This document shows positions 31,613 through 58,158 of a stretch of 64,000 bases of DNA, piece after piece. The notes below the pieces were generated by a model, which was not told the origin of the DNA, did not search any database, and saw only the letters and a program-made list of their open reading frames with translations. Position 1 is the first letter of the stretch. Each line of letters begins with the position of its first letter. This DNA is from Actinomycetes bacterium. GTDB lineage: Bacteria; Actinomycetota; Acidimicrobiia; Acidimicrobiales; Palsa-688. Position numbers and translations under genes: made by a program. The DNA is taken from positions 136,889 through 200,888 of the forward strand of contig JAKCDU010000001.1 of NCBI GenBank assembly GCA_021838445.1, in the 5' to 3' direction.

Positions 31613-31741
31613 GTGATCCGAAGGACGCCAAGGCCCCGACGGGCTCCCGCCAGCCGGCGGTCGGTCCCGCCCGGACGTCCCCCGGCCGCCACGCGGCGCG
31701 CCCACTGGTCCGTTCCTGGGAGGGCGCCATGGCCATCGTAA
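31613..31741 (+). other. candidate leaderless uORF (42 aa) overlapping dop start
   Basis: TAAGGT (31601-31606) then 6 nt then GTG; encodes VIRRTPRPRRAPASRRSVPPGRPPAATRRAHWSVPGRAPWPS, stop TAA 31739-31741 inside dop (ATG 31729). Confidence 0.3.
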
Positions 31742-33228
31742 AGGTCCTCGGCATGGAGACCGAGTTCGGGATCATCATCCGGGGCTCGGCCGATCCCAAC
31801 CCCATTGCCGCCTCGTCCACCCTCATCAACGCCTACGTGGCCGAGTTGAGCCGGAGGGTGGCCTGGGACTTCGAAGACGAGTCGCCGGGCCGTGACGCCC
31901 GCGGGTTCGCCCGGGAGGGTTCGATGCCGCCCGAGGTGGAGACCCATCTGGTCAACGCCGTGCTCACCAATGGGGCCCGCTACTACGTCGATCACGCCCA
32001 CCCCGAGTACTCGACCCCGGAGTGCTCGAACGTCTACGAGGTGATCCGCTACGACAAGGCGGGGGAGTTGATCCTGGCCGACTCCATCCAGGCCGCGTCC
32101 CGTGCTCTGCCGCCGGGCCAGAGCCTGGTCGTGCTGAAGAACAACTCCGATGGCAAGGGCAACTCCTACGGGACCCACGAGAACTACCTGATGGACCGGT
32201 CGGTTCCTTTTTCCCGGATCGTCAGCCACGTGATGCCCCACTTCGTCTCCCGCCAGATCTTCACCGGCGCCGGGAAGGTGGGCAGCGAGGCGCCCAGCAC
32301 GGGCCGCGACCCCATCGAATTCCAGATCACGCAGCGGGCCGACTTCTTCGAGGAGGAGGTCGGCCTCGAGACCACCCTCAAGCGACCGATCGTCAACACC
32401 CGCGACGAGCCTCACTGCGACGCCCACAAATACCGCCGGCTCCACGTGATCGTCGGCGACGCCAACATGTCCGAGGTCGCCAACTTCTTGAAGATGGGTA
32501 CCACCGCGTTGGTGCTGTCCATGATCGAAGACGACTGGTTCGCCCGGGCCAATCGGGACTTCTCCATGCAGTCGCCGGTCGCGGCCATGCGCCGGGTGTC
32601 CTACGACCTCAGCCTGAGCGAACCCCTCGAGATGGCCGACGGGCGCACCATGACGGCCCTCGAGATGCAATGGGAGCACCTGGATCTGGCCAAGAAGTAC
32701 TCAGAGGTGGTGGGGCTCGACGCGGTGGGCGGCGAGGACATCGGTCAGGACATCCTGAGGCGCTGGGAGCAGACCCTCGGCGCCCTCGAATCAGATCCCA
32801 TGTCGCTGGCCCAGCAGCTCGACTGGGTGGCCAAGTACCGCCTGATCGGCGCCTACCGGGATCGCCACGGCCTGTCCTGGCAGGACCACAAACTGGCGGC
32901 CATGGATCTCCAGTACCACGACATCAACCCGGCCCGATCCCTCTTCGCCCGCCTCGGGATGGAGAGGATGCTCGACTCCGACGAGGTTCGGCGGTCGGTG
33001 AGCGAGCCGCCCGAGACGACCCGGGCCTACTTCAGGGGCAAGTGCCTCCAGAGGTGGGCCTCGGCCATAGCCGCCGCCAACTGGGATTCGGTGGTCTTCG
33101 ACCTCGGCGGGGATCCCCTCCGCCGGGTCCCCATGATGGAACCACTAAGAGGCACGCGGGCCCATGTCGAAGAATTGCTGGGTAGCGTGTCCAGTCCAGC
33201 CGAGTTGCTCGAGCGTCTGGGCTCGTAA
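31729..33228 (+). CDS. dop: Pup deamidase/depupylase Dop
   Basis: [87 protein letters not shown]; precedes pup. Confidence 0.94.
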   Translation: MAIVKVLGMETEFGIIIRGSADPNPIAASSTLINAYVAELSRRVAWDFEDESPGRDARGFAREGSMPPEVETHLVNAVLTNGARYYVDHAHPEYSTPECSNVYEVIRYDKAGELILADSIQAASRALPPGQSLVVLKNNSDGKGNSYGTHENYLMDRSVPFSRIVSHVMPHFVSRQIFTGAGKVGSEAPSTGRDPIEFQITQRADFFEEEVGLETTLKRPIVNTRDEPHCDAHKYRRLHVIVGDANMSEVANFLKMGTTALVLSMIEDDWFARANRDFSMQSPVAAMRRVSYDLSLSEPLEMADGRTMTALEMQWEHLDLAKKYSEVVGLDAVGGEDIGQDILRRWEQTLGALESDPMSLAQQLDWVAKYRLIGAYRDRHGLSWQDHKLAAMDLQYHDINPARSLFARLGMERMLDSDEVRRSVSEPPETTRAYFRGKCLQRWASAIAAANWDSVVFDLGGDPLRRVPMMEPLRGTRAHVEELLGSVSSPAELLERLGS

Positions 33229-33245
33229 GAGAAGAGGCATTGCGA

Positions 33246-33443
33246 ATGGCAGAGCGAGAACAGATCAAGAAGTCCGCACCGGCCCGTACCGAGGAGACCG
33301 GGGTCGAGGAGGTTCCGACCTCCAACAAGAAGGGCGAGGAGCTCAAAGCCGAGCTCGACGACCTCCTCGACGAGATCGATGAGGTCCTGGAGGAGAACGC
33401 CGAGGAGTTCGTGCGCAGCTACGTCCAGAAGGGTGGTCAGTAA
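33246..33443 (+). CDS. pup: prokaryotic ubiquitin-like protein Pup
   Basis: MAEREQIKKSAPARTEETGVEEVPTSNKKGEELKAELDDLLDEIDEVLEENAEEFVRSYVQKGGQ; ends GGQ. Confidence 0.97.
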   Translation: MAEREQIKKSAPARTEETGVEEVPTSNKKGEELKAELDDLLDEIDEVLEENAEEFVRSYVQKGGQ

Positions 33444-33473
33444 CGCACCCGGCCCGGTAGGGTTTCGGGTTCT

Positions 33474-34271
33474 ATGAGCCTTCCGATGTTCGACCCGACA
33501 GAGGCCCCGGGTCCCAGCTTCACCGACGTCCTGCGTCGAGTGGGCTTGGACCCCTTCGCCCCGGTCCAGCAGGCGGCCGGCGGCGCTCCTTTCGAGATCC
33601 GCCACGGGACCACCATCGTGGCTCTGCGCTACGCCGACGGAGTGGTGATGGCGGGGGACCGACGGGCCACCGCCGGGTCCTCCATCGCCCATCGAGCCAT
33701 GGATAAGGTCCATCCCGCCGACCGCCACAGCGGGGTTGCCATCGCCGGGGCGGCCGGGCCGGCCATGGAGATGGTGAAGCTGTTCCAGCTCCAGCTGGAG
33801 CACTACGAGAAGGTGGAAGGCTCGGCGCTGAGCCTGGAGGGTAAGGCCAACCAGCTGTCGCAGATGGTGCGCTCCAACCTCGGGATGGCCATGCAGGGCT
33901 TCGTGGTGGTGCCCCTCTTCGCCGGGTTCGACCTGCGCCGGGGAGTCGGGCGCATCTACTCCTACGATCCCACCGGTGGACGCTACGAGGAGACCGACTT
34001 TCACGCCGACGGCTCCGGCGGGCGTGATGCCCGCACGACCATAAAGCTCGGGTGGCGGCCTGATCTGGAGCGCCACGAGGCCGTCGAGTTGGCCGTTCGG
34101 GCCCTCTGGAACGCCGCCGACGAGGACTCGGCGACGGGCGGGCCGGACACGGCCCGGGGTATCTACCCGACCGTCGCCACCATCACCGATTCCGGTTTCG
34201 AGTACCTCCCCCGTGACGAGGTGGCCGACCGGTTCGCAGCGGTGCTGAGCACCGGGGAGGCGCTCCAATGA
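33474..34271 (+). CDS. prcB: proteasome beta subunit
   Basis: Propeptide then [31 protein letters not shown]; between pup and prcA. Confidence 0.95.
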
Positions 34272-34954
34272 GCATGCCGTTCTACGTCGCTCCCGAGCAG
34301 TTCATGAAGGACAAGGCGGACTTCGCCCGGAAGAACATCGCCCGGGGTCGCCCGTTGGTCGCCGTCGTCTACGCCGACGGCATCCTGATCTGCGCCGAGA
34401 ACCAGTCCAAGAGCCTCCACAAGGTGAGCGAGATCTACGACCGGATCGCCTTCGCCGGCGTCGGCCGGTACAACGAATTCGATTCGCTGCGCCGGGCCGG
34501 GGTGCAGCACGCCGACGTCAAGGGCTACCAGTTCAGCCGGGAGGACGTCGACGCCCGATCCCTCGCCAATCTCTACGCCCAGTACATGGGCAACGTGTTC
34601 ACCCACGACATGAAGCCTCTCGAGGTCGAGATCCTGGTGGCCGAGGTAGGCGCCGATCCGGGGGGCGACCAGCTGTTCCACATCCTCTACGACGGGTCGG
34701 TGGTCGACGAGGACCGCTACTCCGTGCTCGGCGGTGAGGCCGAGGCCATATCGGGGCGGCTGGAGGAGGGCTTCGAGTCGACATGGTCGCTCGACGTAGC
34801 CATCCGCCGGGCGGCCAAGGCCCTCGCCGGTGACCGGGAACTGGTGTCGTCCGACCTCGAGGTGGCGGTGCTCCTGCGCTCCGACGGCCGGCGGGCCTTC
34901 CGGCGCATCGACGACGCCGTGGTGGTCGGCGCCCTCGGGGTTACCGCTTCGTAG
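34268..34954 (+). CDS. prcA: proteasome alpha subunit
   Basis: [82 protein letters not shown] overlap with prcB. Confidence 0.95.
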
Positions 34955-34993: not shown

Positions 34994-36712
34994 TCAACCG
35001 GCGCGCCGGCTCACCTCCTCGGGTAGGTGGAGCACCAGCATCTTGCGCATCACGTCGTGGGGCAGGCTGCCCTTGGTGGCCCGCGACCCGACGACCATGG
35101 TGGCGAAGGCCAGCGGCACCGTCCACAGCGCCGGTACCTGGAGGAGCACGGCCCACCAGCCGCGCTCTCCGATGCCGGCGAGTGATGTCACCACGGCTGC
35201 CGATGACGCCCCTCCGCCGATGATGAGGCCGGCCAGCGCGCCCCGCCGGGTGAGCCCGGGCCACCAGATGCCGAGGACGAGCAGGGGGCAGAACGACGAC
35301 GCGGCTATGGCGAAGGCCCATCCGACCAGGACGTTTATCGACGTTCCGGCCACGGCCAGCCCGGCCAGGGTGGTAGCCGTCCCGGTACCGATGGCGGCCC
35401 AGCGAAAGGCCACGACGCCCCGCCCGAGGATGTCGTGGGATACCGCTCCCGACATGGCGATCAGCAGGCCCGACGACGTGGAGAGGAACGCCGCGAACGC
35501 CCCGCCGGCGGTGAGGGCGGTGAGGATGCGCTCGCCCACGCCGGCGCCCACCAGGCGGGGCAGGACCAGCACGACGGTGTCGGTCCGCCCGGTGAGGTAG
35601 AGGGACGGCGCCTCGAGGCGGCCGAGGACGGCGAAGACCGCCGGCCACACGTAGAAGACCGACAGCAGGAGGATCACCAGCGAAGTGGTGCGCCGGGCGG
35701 CTTGGCCGTCGGGGTTGGTGTAGAAGCGCACGAGGATGTGGGGCAGCCCGAGGGCGCCCAGGAAGGTGGCCAGGATGACCCCGTAGGTGGCGGCCAGTGG
35801 GTGGTCCGACCGGCCCCCCAGGCGCAGCAGCGGCGAAGCCCACTGAGCGGCTGACAACGCCCGCGGTCCGGCCACGGCGGGAGCCGGCGATCCGGCCGGG
35901 AACGCGATGCGCGTCGCCGCGGCGATCTGGTGCGGGCCCGGAGCCAGGACCAGATAGCCGTCCACCTCGGCCCCGTCCAGTCCGCCGGCGATGCGTACCT
36001 CGACGGCCGAGGACACCTGCACATCCTCGGCGTGGGGGAACTCGACGGTGGTGGCCTGCGCGAAGGTGGCCGGAGCCCGGCCATCGAGGTGGGCGACGGG
36101 CGGATGGTGGAAGATCAGGGCCAGGGACAGCGCCGGCACGGCGATGGCTAGCAGCTTCAGCCAGTAGAGGAAGGACTGGACGAAGGTGATGCCCTTCATC
36201 CCGCCGCTGGCGATGGCGCCGGTCACGAGTACCCCGAGGGTCACCACGCCGACCCAGTAGGGGCCTCCGCCGACCGCCTGGAGTGTCTCACCGGCGCCTT
36301 CCATCTGGGGCAGGAGGTAGAAGGCGCAGATGAGCACCACCAGCACGGTGGCCACCCGGCGCAGGAGAGGAGAGTCGAGGCGTCCCTCGGCGAAGTCGGG
36401 GATGGTGTAGGCGCCGAAGCGGCGCAGGGGGGCAGCCACGACGGCCAGGAGGACCAGGTAGCCGGCCGCGTAGCCGACGGCGTACCACAGGGCCCCGACC
36501 CCGTCGGCGAGGGCCAGCCCCGCCACGCCGAGGAACGAGGCGGCTGACAGGTATTCGCCGGAGATGGCCGCGGCGTTCAGTCCGGGAGGCACCTGGCGGG
36601 CGGCGACCAGGAAATCGGCCGGGGTGCGGGAGATGCGAAGCCCCCGGGATCCGACCGCGATGGTGGCCACCGCCACCGCCACCACGCCGCCGATGGCCGC
36701 CGGGTCGGTCAC
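34994..36712 (-). CDS. sodium:solute symporter family, acetate permease ActP-like
   Basis: SSS family pattern PPGLNAAAISGEYLSAASFLGVAGLALADGVGALWYAVGYAAGYLVLL; DFAEGRL; GGMKGITFVQSFLYWLKL; followed by small DUF485-like partner. Confidence 0.85.
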   Translation of the reverse strand: MTDPAAIGGVVAVAVATIAVGSRGLRISRTPADFLVAARQVPPGLNAAAISGEYLSAASFLGVAGLALADGVGALWYAVGYAAGYLVLLAVVAAPLRRFGAYTIPDFAEGRLDSPLLRRVATVLVVLICAFYLLPQMEGAGETLQAVGGGPYWVGVVTLGVLVTGAIASGGMKGITFVQSFLYWLKLLAIAVPALSLALIFHHPPVAHLDGRAPATFAQATTVEFPHAEDVQVSSAVEVRIAGGLDGAEVDGYLVLAPGPHQIAAATRIAFPAGSPAPAVAGPRALSAAQWASPLLRLGGRSDHPLAATYGVILATFLGALGLPHILVRFYTNPDGQAARRTTSLVILLLSVFYVWPAVFAVLGRLEAPSLYLTGRTDTVVLVLPRLVGAGVGERILTALTAGGAFAAFLSTSSGLLIAMSGAVSHDILGRGVVAFRWAAIGTGTATTLAGLAVAGTSINVLVGWAFAIAASSFCPLLVLGIWWPGLTRRGALAGLIIGGGASSAAVVTSLAGIGERGWWAVLLQVPALWTVPLAFATMVVGSRATKGSLPHDVMRKMLVLHLPEEVSRRAG

Positions 36713-37113
36713 TGTTCGTGCAGGAGGTCGACGAAGCGGTCCTCCACCCGGCGGGCCCGCCGTACGTAGAGCAGGGCCAGGCCGACCAGCGGAGGGTAGA
36801 TGGCGAAGCCGAGGATGACGACCGACAACGGCAGCGGACCCATCGACGCGCTGGCCAGCCCCGGCAGGAGGGAGGACAGCACCGGGTAGGTCGCGACCAG
36901 GGCCGCGGCCGGTAGGAGGACGGCGATGGTCACGCCGAGTTGGGCTCGCATCAGTGACCGCAGCAGGTTCTGGCCGTACGGGTCGGGCTGGTAGAGGTCC
37001 TCGGGGTCGGGTACGGCCCGGGGGCGATGGGGGAGGGGCGAACCCGACCGCACCGCCACCCGCTGCGTGGCGGGGTCGGTGGGGCGCTCCGGGTCCGGGC
37101 CGGTCCGGCTCAT
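36709..37113 (-). CDS. DUF485-like small membrane protein (symporter partner)
   Basis: NLLRSLMRAQLGVTIAVLLPAAALVATYPVLSSLLP...LPLSVVILGFAIYPPLVGLALLYVRRARRVEDRFVDLL; ATG 37113 overlaps regulator stop. Confidence 0.7.
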   Translation of the reverse strand: MSRTGPDPERPTDPATQRVAVRSGSPLPHRPRAVPDPEDLYQPDPYGQNLLRSLMRAQLGVTIAVLLPAAALVATYPVLSSLLPGLASASMGPLPLSVVILGFAIYPPLVGLALLYVRRARRVEDRFVDLLHEQ

Positions 37114-37838
37114 CGGTGGGGACGGGCCTGGCGCACCAGGCGGTCGCGCAGCTCCCGCACGTGGCGCCGGCTGACGGGGAGGGTCGTGCCGGACACCTCG
37201 ACGAACAGCTGGGCGCCGTCGCTGCGCAACTCCCGGATGGCCTTCAGGCACACCAAATACTGGCGGTGGATGCGGGCGAAGCCGTCCTGGCCCCAGGCCT
37301 CCTCCATGCGGGCCAGAGGCAGGCGTACCAGGAACGACCGCTGGTCGAAGGTGCGGATCCGCACGTAGTCACCCGCCGACTCGACCCAGGCGACCTCGCG
37401 GCGGGAGAGCATCAGCGTTCGACCGGGAGCCTCGACGGGGACGAACTCGAGCGACTCGTCGGGGCCGTGGGGGCGCGGAGGGGTCAGCCGGCGCAGGACT
37501 TGGCCCAGTCGCTGCTGGTCCACCGGTTTCAGCAGGTAGCCCGCCGCCCCGACCTCGAAGGCTTCCAGGGCGTGCTCCTCGTGGGCTGTCACGAAGACGA
37601 TCGAGGGGGGCTCGGAGAACTGCGCCAGCACCGACGCCAGCTCCATGCCCCCGAGGCCGGGCATGGCGATGTCGAGGACCACCACGTCGAAGGCCCGGTC
37701 ACGCAGTTGGCGCAGGGCTTCGGTGGCGCTGCGTACCGCCACCACCTCTCCCACCAGATCCGACGAGCGCAGCAGGTACTCGAGCTCGTCGAGGGCGGGG
37801 GCCTCGTCGTCCACGGCGAGAGCGCTCAACAGGACCAT
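37110..37838 (-). CDS. LytTR family response regulator
   Basis: Receiver domain (AVDDEAPALDEL, VVLDIAMPGLGGMEL, LLKPVDQQRL) plus LytTR domain (VESAGDYVRIRTFDQRSFLVRLPLARMEE...FARIHRQYLVCLKAIREL...LPVSRRHVRELRDRL). Confidence 0.92.
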   Translation of the reverse strand: MVLLSALAVDDEAPALDELEYLLRSSDLVGEVVAVRSATEALRQLRDRAFDVVVLDIAMPGLGGMELASVLAQFSEPPSIVFVTAHEEHALEAFEVGAAGYLLKPVDQQRLGQVLRRLTPPRPHGPDESLEFVPVEAPGRTLMLSRREVAWVESAGDYVRIRTFDQRSFLVRLPLARMEEAWGQDGFARIHRQYLVCLKAIRELRSDGAQLFVEVSGTTLPVSRRHVRELRDRLVRQARPHR

Positions 37839-37839
37839 C

Positions 37840-39021
37840 TCACGTCCTCCCGTTGGCCGCCGTGGCGGGCTGGAATTTGGGCACGCTGAAGGTCACCTTG
37901 GTGCCGGCGCCCGACGCCGTCTCCACCAGCAGGCCGTGGTCCTCGCCGAAAGTGGCCCGCAGCCTCTCATCGACGTTGCGCAGCCCCACCGAATCGGTGC
38001 GCCCGGTCAGGGCCCGCCTCAGGTGACCCGGCTCGGCGCCCACCCCGTCGTCCTCCACCGAGATGACCGCCTCGGTGTCGGCATCGGCCAGGTCGATGCG
38101 CAGGCGCCCGTGCCCGAGGGGCTCCAGGCCGTGGCGGATGGCGTTCTCGACGACGGGTTGGAGCACCAGCGAGGGGACGTGGACGGCCAGCACCTCGGGC
38201 GCCACCCGCAGGGTTACGTCGATGCGGTCGCCGAAGCGGGCCCGCTCGAGGTCGAGGTAGATGTCCACCAGGCGCAGCTCCTCGGCGAGGGTGGCGGTCT
38301 GGGCGTGGCTGGCGAAGCTGTACCGGGTGAAGTCGGCGAAGGAGACCAGCAGCTCCCGGGCCCGTTCGGGATCGGAGCGGACGAACGACTCGATGGCGGT
38401 CAGGGAGTTGTAGATGAAGTGGGGGGAGATCTGGGCCCGCAGGAATCGCAGCTCGGCTTGTACCGCCCGGCGCTTCGAGCGGTCCAACTCGGCCAGCTCG
38501 AGTTGGGTCGACACGAATCGGGCGACCTCGCCACAGAGGCGTTGGAGTCCGGCCGAGGCCCCGCCGTCGAGTGCGACGAGGGCCCCCACCACGCGGCCTT
38601 CGACGTGGAGCGGGGCCACCACCCCGGCGGTCAGGCCGCACCCCTCCCGCCCGCACTGCAGCTCGACGGTGGAGATGATGGCCGGTCGGCCCGAGAGCAT
38701 GGCAGCCTCGATGTGGGGGGTGAGCAGGCGGCAGTGCTCGTCGTCCACCCCCTCGGCGGCCACCGTCCCCTGGGCGTCGGCGATCACCAGACCGCGGGCG
38801 GCGATCAGCGACCGCAGCGGGGTGAGGGCCCGGTTCATGGTGTCGGCGGTGAGACCCGACCGCAGGGGCGGGGCCGCCTGGTTGGCCGTGCGCAGGGCCT
38901 CGTAGGTGACCCGCTGGCCGGGGGTTACGAGCCGCCGCCCGGCCTGGCGGGCGTAGAGACCAGCGACGGCCAGGGCCGCCACCATGACCGCCAGAACGGC
39001 CCATGTGAGATCCCTCGTCAC
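37840..39021 (-). CDS. LytS-type sensor histidine kinase
   Basis: AQISPHFIYNSLTAIESFVRSDPERARELLVSFADFTRYSF; LVLQPVVENAIRHGLEP; SVEDDGVGAEPG. Start GTG 39021. Confidence 0.9.
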   Translation of the reverse strand: MTRDLTWAVLAVMVAALAVAGLYARQAGRRLVTPGQRVTYEALRTANQAAPPLRSGLTADTMNRALTPLRSLIAARGLVIADAQGTVAAEGVDDEHCRLLTPHIEAAMLSGRPAIISTVELQCGREGCGLTAGVVAPLHVEGRVVGALVALDGGASAGLQRLCGEVARFVSTQLELAELDRSKRRAVQAELRFLRAQISPHFIYNSLTAIESFVRSDPERARELLVSFADFTRYSFASHAQTATLAEELRLVDIYLDLERARFGDRIDVTLRVAPEVLAVHVPSLVLQPVVENAIRHGLEPLGHGRLRIDLADADTEAVISVEDDGVGAEPGHLRRALTGRTDSVGLRNVDERLRATFGEDHGLLVETASGAGTKVTFSVPKFQPATAANGRT

Positions 39022-39109
39022 CTGCCCGACCTCATCCTCCCCTGCCGCGGCCGATTCCCGAGCACGACGGCAGGAGTGTGCCACAAGGGACCGGCGGGGA
39101 TCGGGACGC

Positions 39110-39160
39110 ACCGTTCGCCGCTGACCAGTGACCGTTCGGCGCTCGGGAGGGACCGTTCAG
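39110..39160 (+). promoter_or_regulatory. three LytTR-type direct repeats, 21-bp periodicity
   Basis: ACCGTTCGC (39110-39118), ACCGTTCGG (39131-39139), ACCGTTCAG (39152-39160), 12-bp spacers, between the LytS/LytTR genes and satP-acs. Confidence 0.75.
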
Positions 39161-39262
39161 CGATTGGCCGGCCGGGAGTCTTTCGGATCGGAGGTGGACC
39201 GGCTCAAAATCCGTGCGGCGGGGGCCGCTCGGGTCACCGCAGCAAGAGATGGGGGATGAGAT

Positions 39263-39921
39263 ATGGCGATCTACAGCGCAAACGATGCCGTGGGGGCTCC
39301 GACGGTCATGGAGGTGACCTCGGTACCGCCCCCTGCGGATCCGGCTCCACTGGGTCTGGCGGCCTTCGCGCTGACCACGTTCCTCCTGTCGGCCCAGAAC
39401 GCCAACTGGACGAGGGGGACGGCGCCGTTCCTGGGGTTTGCCTTCGCCTACGGCGGGCTGTGCCAGCTCCTCGCCGGGATGTGGGAATTCCGTAACCGCA
39501 ACGTCTTCGGGGCTACGGCGTTCTCGACCTACGGCGGCTTCTGGATCGGACTGGCCATCTACGTCGAGTTGGTCGCACCCGGCGCCAAGAACGTGGTTCA
39601 GGTGCACAACGACGAGGCGTGGATTCTGCTCGCCTTCTTGATCTTCAACACCTACATGCTGCTGTGGAGCTCTGCGGTGAACTTGGCCGTCCTCGGCGTG
39701 TTCCTCACTCTCGAGATCACCGAGATCGTGCTCGTGTTCGCCAACTTCCAGAACAGCACCGGACTGGCCCACTGGGGTGGCTACCTGGGTGTCGTCACCG
39801 CCGCGGTGGCCTGGTACACGTCGGCCGCCGGCGTCATCAACGGGATGCGGGGCCGGCCGGTACTGTTCGTGGGCGGCCCCTTGATGAGGCCGGTCTCGAA
39901 CATCCAGTTGGGAGAGCGCCC

Positions 39922-39925
<4 letters not shown>
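39263..39925 (+). CDS. acetate uptake transporter, GPR1/FUN34/YaaH (SatP) family
   Basis: DPAPLGLAAFALTTFLLSAQNANW, GFAFAYGGLCQLLAGMWEFRNRNVFGATAFSTYGGFWIGL. Confidence 0.92.
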
Positions 39926-41889
<1,964 letters not shown>

Positions 41890-41930
41890 GGCCGCCGAGC
41901 GCCCGGTATGGCGCTAGCGTGCGCCTGGTC

Positions 41931-43289
41931 ATGGACCGGCGCATCTTCGGCCTGGAGAACGAGTACGGAGTCACGTGCACCTTGCGGGGCCAGCGCCGGC
42001 TGAGCCCCGACGAGGTGGCGCGCTACCTGTTCCGCCGGGTGGTCAGCTGGGGCCGGTCGTCCAACGTCTTCCTGGAGAACGGGGCGCGCCTGTATCTCGA
42101 CGTGGGTAGCCACCCCGAGTACGCCACGCCCGAATGCGATTCGATCCTCGACCTGGTCGCCCATGACAAGGCGGGGGAGCGCATACTCGAGCAACTGGTC
42201 GGCTCCGCCGAGGCCCGCCTGCGCGAGGAGGGCATCCGGGGTGTGGTCTTCCTGTTCAAGAACAACACCGACTCGGCCGGCAACTCCTACGGCTGCCACG
42301 AGAACTACCTGACGAGCCGGCGGGACGACTTCGCCCACTACGCCGAGGTGCTCATCCCGTTCCTGGTGAGCCGGCAGATCTACGCCGGTGCCGGCAAGGT
42401 GCTGCAGACGGCGCGCGGCGCCATGTACTGCATCAGCCAACGGGCCGAGCACATCTGGGAGGGGGTCTCGTCGGCCACCACCCGCAGCCGGCCCATCATC
42501 AACACCCGGGACGAGCCCCACGCCGACGCCGAGCGTTACCGCCGGCTGCACGTGATAGTCGGTGACTCGAACATGAGCGAGTACTCCACCTTTTTGAAGA
42601 TTGGTGCCACCAGCATCCTGTTGCGCATGCTCGAGGACCCCGCCGTGATCCTCAGGGACATGACCCTGGAGAACCCCATCCGGGCCATCCGGGAGATCAG
42701 CCACGACACCACCCTGCGCCGCCGGGTGCGCCTGGCCAACGGCCGGGAAGCCAGCGCCCTCGACATCCAGACCGAGTACTTCAATCGGGCCCGGCGCTAC
42801 CAGGAGACCAAGGGCCTGTCCCCGCTGGAGGACCAGGCCCTCGACATGTGGGAGCACTGCCTGACCGGACTCGAATCCGACCCGTGGTCGCTCGACCGGG
42901 AATGCGACTGGGTCATCAAGCACCACCTGATCGAGCGCTACCGATTGCGCAACGACATCCCCCTCACCCATCCCAAGGTGGCCCTGATCGACCTCCAGTA
43001 CCACGACGTGAACCGCCAGCGGGGCCTGTTCTACAAGCTGCAGTCGGCCGGGCTGGTCGAGCGCACCTGCACCGACGAGGCCATCGACACCGCCATGGAC
43101 CAGCCCCCGCAGACCACCCGGGCCCGGCTGCGGGGCGAGTTCATCCGCAAAGCCAAGGAGCGGCGCCGGGATTTCACCGTCGACTGGGTGCACCTCAAGC
43201 TCAACGACCAGGCCCAGCGCACCGTGCTCTGCAAGGACCCGTTCAAGTCCCACGACGAGCGGGTCGAGAAGCTGATCGCCTCGCTCTAG
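41931..43289 (+). CDS. pafA: Pup-protein ligase PafA
   Basis: [71 protein letters not shown]; start ATG 41931 (track GTG 41919 lies in the TAGCGT box). Confidence 0.95.
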
Positions 43290-56358: not shown

Positions 56359-58158
56359 CTAGCTGTCGGCCTCGGTGTTGGCGGCGTCGCTGGCCGGGGC
56401 GTCGCTGGCCGGGGCGTCGCCGGCCGGGGCGTCGCTGGCCGGGGCGTCGCCGGCCGGGGCGTCGCCGGCCGGGGCGGCATGGCTGCCTTCGTCGGCATGC
56501 GCCGCGTCGGCCGCCGCGTCAGTTGCGGGGGCTGCCTCGGCGGTGGTGACGTCGGCCGGTCCTGCTTCGGCGGCTGCTCCCACGATGCCTCGCGCCGGCG
56601 GGACGTCCGGGGCGCCGGCGGGCTCTGACGAGGTCCCCTGTCCGGCAGGGGCGGGCGGGGAGGCCTCGGTCTGCTCGCTGCGAGCCTCGGTTCCATTCGG
56701 CCGACCCGTCTCGCTGCGCCGGCCAGGGCGGCTGCCCGCCGGGCGGCTGCCCGCCGGCCGGTCCTGGGAGCGTCGCCGGCCGGGGATGGGGGCGGGGGGC
56801 GGGGGAATAGCTACGCCCAGCAGCTTGGCCAGGGCGGGGATGTTGCCCGAGTACTGGTGGGCAGCCCGCTTGAGATCGGGCGGGGCGTTGTCGGGTAGCC
56901 CGGTGGGGACCACGGCCCGCCGGATGGGCGACTCCGCCACTGCCTCGAGCAGGGAGGCCCACAGCTCGGGAGGGGTCTCGGGCGACAGGGTGGCTCCGGC
57001 CGCGGCGGTCAGACGATCGGCCAGCTCGGCCTCGAGGCGGGCCCCGGCGTCAGGCGGCCGGGCCGACAGCCGGACGGCCCGTACCACCCGGCCGGCGTCC
57101 AGTTGAGTGGTGATGTCGGCGGTCCAGGTGGCGTGGAGCTTGGCCACCCGGGATTCGATGGCTTCGCGCAGGGTGGCGGCCAGCGCCCGGCTCTCGTCGT
57201 CGCGGGCGAGGTCGGACCCGGCGACGACCGAGCGAAGATCGCGCATCGAGATGTCGGCCACGGCGGCGGCTGCGGCTTCGGCCCGGTCCCGCCACTCGGC
57301 GGCCCGGAGGCGGGGGAGCAGGGACTCGGCCAGCGCCAGCAGCGCCTCGGAGTTGGGAGCCGCCCGACCGTCGGCTTCGGCCTTTTCCCGCTCGAGGTGC
57401 AGCGCCGTGCGCACCGCAGGTATCCCACCCCTGAGCAGGTGCTCGGCTATGGGCTGATGCTCGGGGGGAAGCGAGTCCATGACCGCCCGGCGGTGGGTCG
57501 AGCCAGGGTTGAGGCGTCGGGCCTTGGAACGGTCGAGGTGCTCGGCCTGCGAGGACGTACGACCCGCGCCCCGCCGGTCGGAGTCGGGGCCCGGCCGACT
57601 GGCGGCACCCTCCCGGGCGCGCCCCTCACGGCTGCGGCTGTCGGGGGGTCCCGAGTCGCCCCCCGGTCCGGCGTCGCGGCGGGGACCGGCCTCTCGGCGG
57701 GGTCCGGCGTCACGGCGCGGGCGCCCGTCGGTGGAATCGCCCGAAGGGGCACCGTCACGGCGGGGCCTTCCGAGGTCACCCCGGGGACGGCCGTCCCCGG
57801 TACGCCCCGGGCCGCGGTCACGCCGCCGGGAGTCGTCGCCGTCGCGGGGGCGATCCCGCCGTTCGGCGCGACCCACGAGCTGAGTCGTCACGGGTGGGGT
57901 GTCGGGACGGCTCGGGCCCACGACCTCGATGCGTTGGGCCTGGGGACGGTCCTCGCGCTTGGGCGCGGTCACCGAGGTGATGACGATGCCTTCGAGCTCG
58001 AATTCGGCCTCGGCCTTGACGGTGTCGCCGGCCTTGGCCCCTTCGTAGAGCAATCCGCCGTCCAGCACTCCCTTGGGCTCCCGGGCCCCAGCGGCGCGCC
58101 AGGTCCATGTGCCGTCAGGGCGCGCGCTAGTCAGCTCTATGTCAATTCTACGGGGCAC
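56359..58158 (-). CDS. uncharacterised 599-aa protein: N-terminal beta-rich domain, Arg/Gly/Asp-rich disordered linker, helical domain, PA(S/G)DA repeats
   Basis: MPRRIDIELTSARPDGTWTWRAAGAREPKGVLDGGLLYEGAKAGDTVKAEAEFELEGIVITSVTAP; long single ORF, GDAPASDA tail. Confidence 0.72.
   Translation of the reverse strand: MPRRIDIELTSARPDGTWTWRAAGAREPKGVLDGGLLYEGAKAGDTVKAEAEFELEGIVITSVTAPKREDRPQAQRIEVVGPSRPDTPPVTTQLVGRAERRDRPRDGDDSRRRDRGPGRTGDGRPRGDLGRPRRDGAPSGDSTDGRPRRDAGPRREAGPRRDAGPGGDSGPPDSRSREGRAREGAASRPGPDSDRRGAGRTSSQAEHLDRSKARRLNPGSTHRRAVMDSLPPEHQPIAEHLLRGGIPAVRTALHLEREKAEADGRAAPNSEALLALAESLLPRLRAAEWRDRAEAAAAAVADISMRDLRSVVAGSDLARDDESRALAATLREAIESRVAKLHATWTADITTQLDAGRVVRAVRLSARPPDAGARLEAELADRLTAAAGATLSPETPPELWASLLEAVAESPIRRAVVPTGLPDNAPPDLKRAAHQYSGNIPALAKLLGVAIPPPPAPIPGRRRSQDRPAGSRPAGSRPGRRSETGRPNGTEARSEQTEASPPAPAGQGTSSEPAGAPDVPPARGIVGAAAEAGPADVTTAEAAPATDAAADAAHADEGSHAAPAGDAPAGDAPASDAPAGDAPASDAPASDAANTEADS
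56386..56475. repeat. six exact-length 15-bp tandem repeats (GTCGCYGGCCGGGGC)
   Basis: Units at 56386, 56401, 56416, 56431, 56446, 56461 differing only T/C at position 6 (T,T,C,T,C,C); encode PA(S/G)DA on minus strand. Confidence 0.95.

Follow-up and report, generated by a model that had tools for sequence, protein, structure and literature searches.

LytTR-type operators consist of at least two repeats of 9 to 11 nt placed 11 to 13 nt apart (PMC4847170), activation from sites upstream of the -35 element is the usual mode of LytTR regulators (PMC11347149), and AgrA makes its DNA contacts through the FhRhHRS segment (PMC4227749). The closest characterised relative of the regulator encoded in our window, the whole 64,000-nucleotide stretch of actinobacterial DNA analysed here, is BtsR of the E. 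coli BtsS/BtsR system. The two share 33% identity as well as the DNA-facing segments HRQYLV and PVSRR, which are not found in PyrR/YpdB, and the NCBIfam BtsR equivalog is the best match of the window regulator at 152.5 bits, below the cutoff of 246. The BtsR operator core, RCCRYTYR, recurs at 20-21 bp and is present in three copies at btsT: in the E. coli genome, the btsT promoter carries GCCGCTCA, ACCGCTTA and ACCACTCA at 20 and 21 bp. The btsT probe of PMC4847170 appears to hold all three boxes, which is our reading rather than a statement of that paper.

The PyrS/PyrR (YpdA/YpdB) system of E. coli likewise combines a LytTR regulator, direct repeats and a transporter target. PyrR shares 27% identity with the window regulator, has the motif GGCATTTCAT and reads PVSRS instead of the PVSRR of the window regulator. 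In E. coli, pyruvate is the signal for both the BtsR and the PyrR systems (PMC10653868). The CO regulators RcoM1 and CoxC, which are one-component sensors, use LytTR operators of three direct repeats about two helical turns apart (PMC11347149), with the motif TTCNNGCA, and CoxC represses. The window array also has three repeats, but of another sequence.

Two-component control of acetate genes is represented by CrbS/CrbR (MxtR/ErdR), in which CrbR is a LuxR-type regulator. PMC5715377 describes this pair as controlling acs and acetate use; its sensor is fused to an SLC5 symporter via a STAC domain, and neither protein is known to carry LytTR.

In the window, a three-box array lies in a 241-bp gap (39022-39262) between a kinase/LytTR/DUF485/SSS operon on the minus strand and satP-acs on the plus strand (Table 1). 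Alignment with relatives puts the most likely start of the kinase at GTG 39021, which leaves the boxes in genuinely intergenic sequence. The regulator scores above the Pfam cutoffs for PF00072 (83.5 bits) and PF04397 (70 bits), and its LytTR domain is the only one found in the genome; among the matches listed in a PDB sequence search, the receiver domain alone was matched. ATGA or GTGA overlaps occur at both the regulator/DUF485-like and the DUF485-like/SSS junctions. The symporter, originally described as actP-like, does belong to the SSS family, but by NCBIfam it is an unspecialised member of that family and not clearly an ActP.

Table 1. Features of the acetate module and its divergent intergenic region (window coordinates)
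Feature	Position	Strand	Remarks
SSS-family symporter	34994..36712	-	nearest NCBIfam VC_2705 family, ahead of MctC and ActP; none over cutoff
DUF485-like small membrane protein	36709..37113	-	weak Pfam match; ATGA overlap with regulator
Response regulator	37110..37838	-	receiver and LytTR
Sensor kinase	37840..39021	-	one TM helix, GAF, His_kinase, HATPase; no 5TMR_LYT
Putative extended -10 of kinase operon (TGG-CACACT)	39075..39083	-	near-invariant AGTnTGnCAC in 8 relatives
LytTR box 1	39110..39120	+	ACCGTTCGCCG; slot -95 from the -10
LytTR box 2	39131..39141	+	ACCGTTCGGCG; slot -74; top PWM score of the three
LytTR box 3, promoter-proximal	39152..39162	+	ACCGTTCAGCG; slot -53
Weak -35 candidate TTCGGA of satP-acs	39182-39187	+	hexamer as read
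Putative -10 CAAAAT of satP-acs	39205..39210	+	+53 from box 3, a -10 offset that recurs in other arrays
satP, acetate uptake transporter	39263..39925	+	AceTr_1 over cutoff (NCBIfam)
acs, acetate--CoA ligase	39922..41889	+	NCBIfam cutoff passed; ATGA overlap with satP

As the original prediction had read it, copies of ACCGTTC begin on the plus strand at 39110, 39131 and 39152, in exact 21-bp steps, within the repeats ACCGTTCGC, ACCGTTCGG and ACCGTTCAG. A 9-bp reading of the boxes gives the 12-bp spacers first described, but the conserved unit is 11 bp, ACCGTTCNNCG (RCCGYTCRNCG), and its spacer 10 bp. The array has the overall pattern of a LytTR operator and its 21-bp period is conserved, but the proposed nine-base consensus is broken at base 9 of box 1, a C. 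The boxes (ACCGTTCG/A) also match the BtsR pattern RCC[AG]YT[CT][AG] at 20-21 bp and differ from the BtsR core by an NCG extension.

Pattern counts in the window and dinucleotide shuffles ruled out a chance origin. ACCGTTC occurs 12 times in the 64-kb window (6.5 expected), ACCGTTC-N13..15-CCGTTC occurs solely in this array (0.03 expected), and when the intergenic region was shuffled 20,000 times with dinucleotides preserved, only 2 shuffles contained an evenly spaced triplet of any identical 7-mer. The array is likewise the single site for RCCRYTCR-N13-RCCRYTCR in the whole 4.0-Mb genome, and this genome-wide search for box pairs found no further targets there. A second satP-like gene of the same genome (G000:C45:20726-21280; 48% identity) has no box pair by this pattern. 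An Rfam search of 36500-42000 found no RNA element.

Regulator orthologs are present in 14 of 119 related genomes. Upstream of satP, a 21-bp box pair directed toward satP was found at 10 of 11 loci of regulator-positive and 0 of 19 loci of regulator-negative relatives (Fisher 4e-7, a statistic that ignores relatedness), a comparison that had been offered with the prediction as its own refutation test and that it withstood. The position weight matrix (PWM) includes boxes from 8 of these 10 positives, leaving G015 and G073 outside it. The exception, G090, carries three boxes upstream of acs (L045) and none such before satP. Close relatives have two, three or four boxes, every step being 21 bp; three boxes had been thought unusual, a view that does not hold given these relatives, btsT and the triplets of RcoM1 and CoxC (PMC11347149). 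When eight intergenic regions were aligned (mean identity 46%), the invariant columns clustered in the boxes and in the AGTnTGnCAC block.

Clusters of kinase, LytTR and SSS genes are spread through the Actinomycetota, with Mycolicibacterium, Nocardia and Rhodococcus among their carriers, and the open-access literature searched yielded no report assigning a regulator to them. At 80 named actinobacterial loci, the kinase, regulator, DUF485 and SSS genes are clustered. We scanned these loci with the matrix from close relatives; an early loose array scan, whose threshold was too low, had returned thousands of coding matches and was discarded. The top-scoring pairs point toward transporter genes; they separate the first SSS gene from a second DUF485/SSS operon or precede SatP or Acs. 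With spacing left free from 12 to 33, 40 of 48 strong pairs at 78 loci fell at 21 bp, against 3 of 29 in shuffles. A strong array was absent from the fetched flank of about 38 of the 80 regulator loci, many of them from Micromonosporaceae. In the phylum sample, 14 arrays lay within 12 kb of a regulator ortholog, where about 0.3 were expected.

Among 74 array sites fetched, those preceding SSS, CstA, OFA/lactate, MHS, SatP or Acs genes made up 21 of 50 in regulator-positive and 0 of 24 in regulator-negative genomes (p = 3e-4 without the five loci that supplied or matched the query proteins), in counts that ignore relatedness and with target classes that are partly post hoc, since CstA, OFA and MHS were noticed in the same loci. 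These three classes recurred in further genomes (CstA in two, OFA in three, MHS in one). Even such arrays that lie apart from the regulator in the assembly are confined to genomes that carry it, before acs in G406 and before OFA genes in Streptomyces-like genomes.

At four Streptomyces-like loci (L149, L150, L198, L199), distant from the regulator gene, an array precedes an OFA-family/L-lactate MFS gene, with three boxes at L199. An array precedes cstA, which belongs to the transporter family of btsT, in three genomes (G368, G336 and G326; array loci L136, L191 and L197); the window's genome has no CstA-linked array. Short-ORF, intergenic-looking arrays occur in two regulator-positive genomes (L202, L203), and the L203 array precedes an ORF that by eye resembles a mannose-type PTS EIIA. 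PMC9739842 lists two orphans of S. coelicolor, the LytTR regulator SCO1220 and the kinase SCO1217, which may form a split pair of this kind.

The repeats are thus conserved, uniformly oriented, in register with the -10 and dependent on the regulator's presence. Together with the match to the BtsR core, the co-occurrence of array and regulator and the conserved 21-bp phasing strongly support the proposed link between this regulator and satP-acs. We consider it very likely, judging from sequence comparison, that a BtsR-like LytTR regulator binds the three head-to-tail sites and activates satP-acs, with autoregulation possible. The three repeats would be the operator of the protein encoded at 37110-37838, three monomers of which would sit head-to-tail on one DNA face, 21 bp being two helical turns. 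The kinase, with its LytS-type catalytic core, would phosphorylate the regulator when it perceives a signal related to small monocarboxylates, and SatP and Acs would be made as a result. BtsR and the window regulator would then both be tied to small-acid transporter genes, the CstA-type btsT for BtsR and, by prediction, satP-acs here.

The sensor differs from BtsS. A domain search that recovered the 5TMR_LYT receptor of BtsS as a control (6.7e-59) did not find it in the window kinase, and the protein is therefore not the LytS that had been proposed. The H-box SPHF, with its His after Pro and before Phe as in LytS-type kinases, is invariant in 13 orthologs. The kinase consists of one N-terminal TM helix, GAF, His_kinase and HATPase only, and lacks a CrbS-style SLC5 symporter fusion. 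Since a single TM helix and a GAF domain replace the pyruvate-binding 5TMR_LYT of BtsS, its ligand is probably cytosolic, and pyruvate may not be assumed by analogy. Searching by fold with the modelled kinase returned generic kinases only and was therefore uninformative about the ligand. Most orthologs have a CX3-4C pair in the GAF domain (LxCxxxDC), a possible thiol or metal site that is missing from the aligned Rhodococcus, Williamsia and Nocardia sequences.

To judge by the target genes in other genomes, the signal may be small monocarboxylates in general. It is possible, though less likely than not, that pyruvate, lactate or a general shortage of carbon is what the system mainly responds to, with satP-acs a lineage-specific target and acetate not the signal: in other genomes the array precedes CstA, named as a pyruvate/proton symporter, as well as OFA/lactate MFS and MHS transporters, and BtsR and PyrR are pyruvate systems. 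Against this, no targets beyond satP-acs and perhaps the divergent SSS operon were found in the window lineage, and the kinase lacks the domain with which BtsS binds pyruvate.

When 63 promoters were aligned on the last strong box, TANNNT appeared at +53, +63/64 and +73/74, in steps of one helical turn; conversely, box scores in 48 promoters aligned on the -10 peaked at -53, -74 and -95. Counted from CAAAAT at 39205, a weak -10 match chosen with the expected offset in mind, the window boxes occupy each of the three slots, and G002 has CAGAAT at the matching offset. In Nocardia and Mycolicibacterium the slot nearest the promoter is often taken by a degenerate box; box scores at +20 to +22 were positive in 28% of cases across all 63 promoters versus 6% at control positions. 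Box geometry would place activation at about -65, -86 and -107, the nearest box being centred roughly 60 bp upstream of the predicted satP-acs start site, and the promoter thought to be activated has a poor -35.

Repression of satP-acs by the bound regulator until the signal arrives, as by CoxC at PcoxB, has a model in that LytTR repressor with three direct repeats (PMC11347149), but the CoxC sites overlap the -35, whereas here 53 bp lie between the start of box 3 and the -10. That distance and the weak -35 therefore make the arrangement activator-type, in keeping with the majority of LytTR regulators (PMC11347149), and we regard repression as unlikely. The boxes point to the satP-acs side and are phased with its -10; control of both sides, in line with the suggested bidirectional occupancy, is no more than a possibility, and an array acting also on the divergent promoter would yield more kinase, regulator and SSS symporter.

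CRP/GlxR-like sites (TGTGA-N6-TCWCA, at most two mismatches) occur in 45 of the 63 array promoters versus 1.9% in shuffles, often just upstream of the -10 (for example L056, L094, L097, and upstream of satP in L038-L040). The window has none, its best candidate having three mismatches. The frequency of such sites in related promoters could hint that some other transcription factor uses the boxes and that the LytTR gene is a mere neighbour, but this is very improbable because target-linked arrays were not found in regulator-negative genomes, because even unlinked arrays occur only alongside the regulator and because the motif core matches BtsR.

The same box code stands at acetate, pyruvate and lactate uptake genes in many actinobacteria, and therefore points to a system controlling the scavenging of small acids that seems not to have been described. 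Somewhat more speculatively, it appears reasonably likely that these loci form a phylum-wide small-monocarboxylate regulon, in which one three-slot, -10-phased LytTR code shared with gamma-proteobacterial BtsR is retained and lineages have swapped both the sensor (one TM helix with GAF) and the target transporters (SatP, SSS, CstA, OFA, MHS). The array would then be a sequence rule predicting the targets of kinase/LytTR/SSS clusters, one code linking acetate, pyruvate and lactate uptake. It would also offer a test case for LytTR proteins using more than two sites, and the kinase a natural example of one output coupled to another kind of sensor.

Elsewhere in the window, an in-phase 15-bp tandem repeat (GGGGCGTCGCYGGCC) at 56380-56470 is probably coding. 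Proteasome/Pup genes (dop-like, prcB, prcA, pafA; names partly by inspection) flank the acetate module at 31729-34954 and 41919-43289. This gene order is kept in several relatives, and several close relatives place the module between the proteasome genes and pafA.
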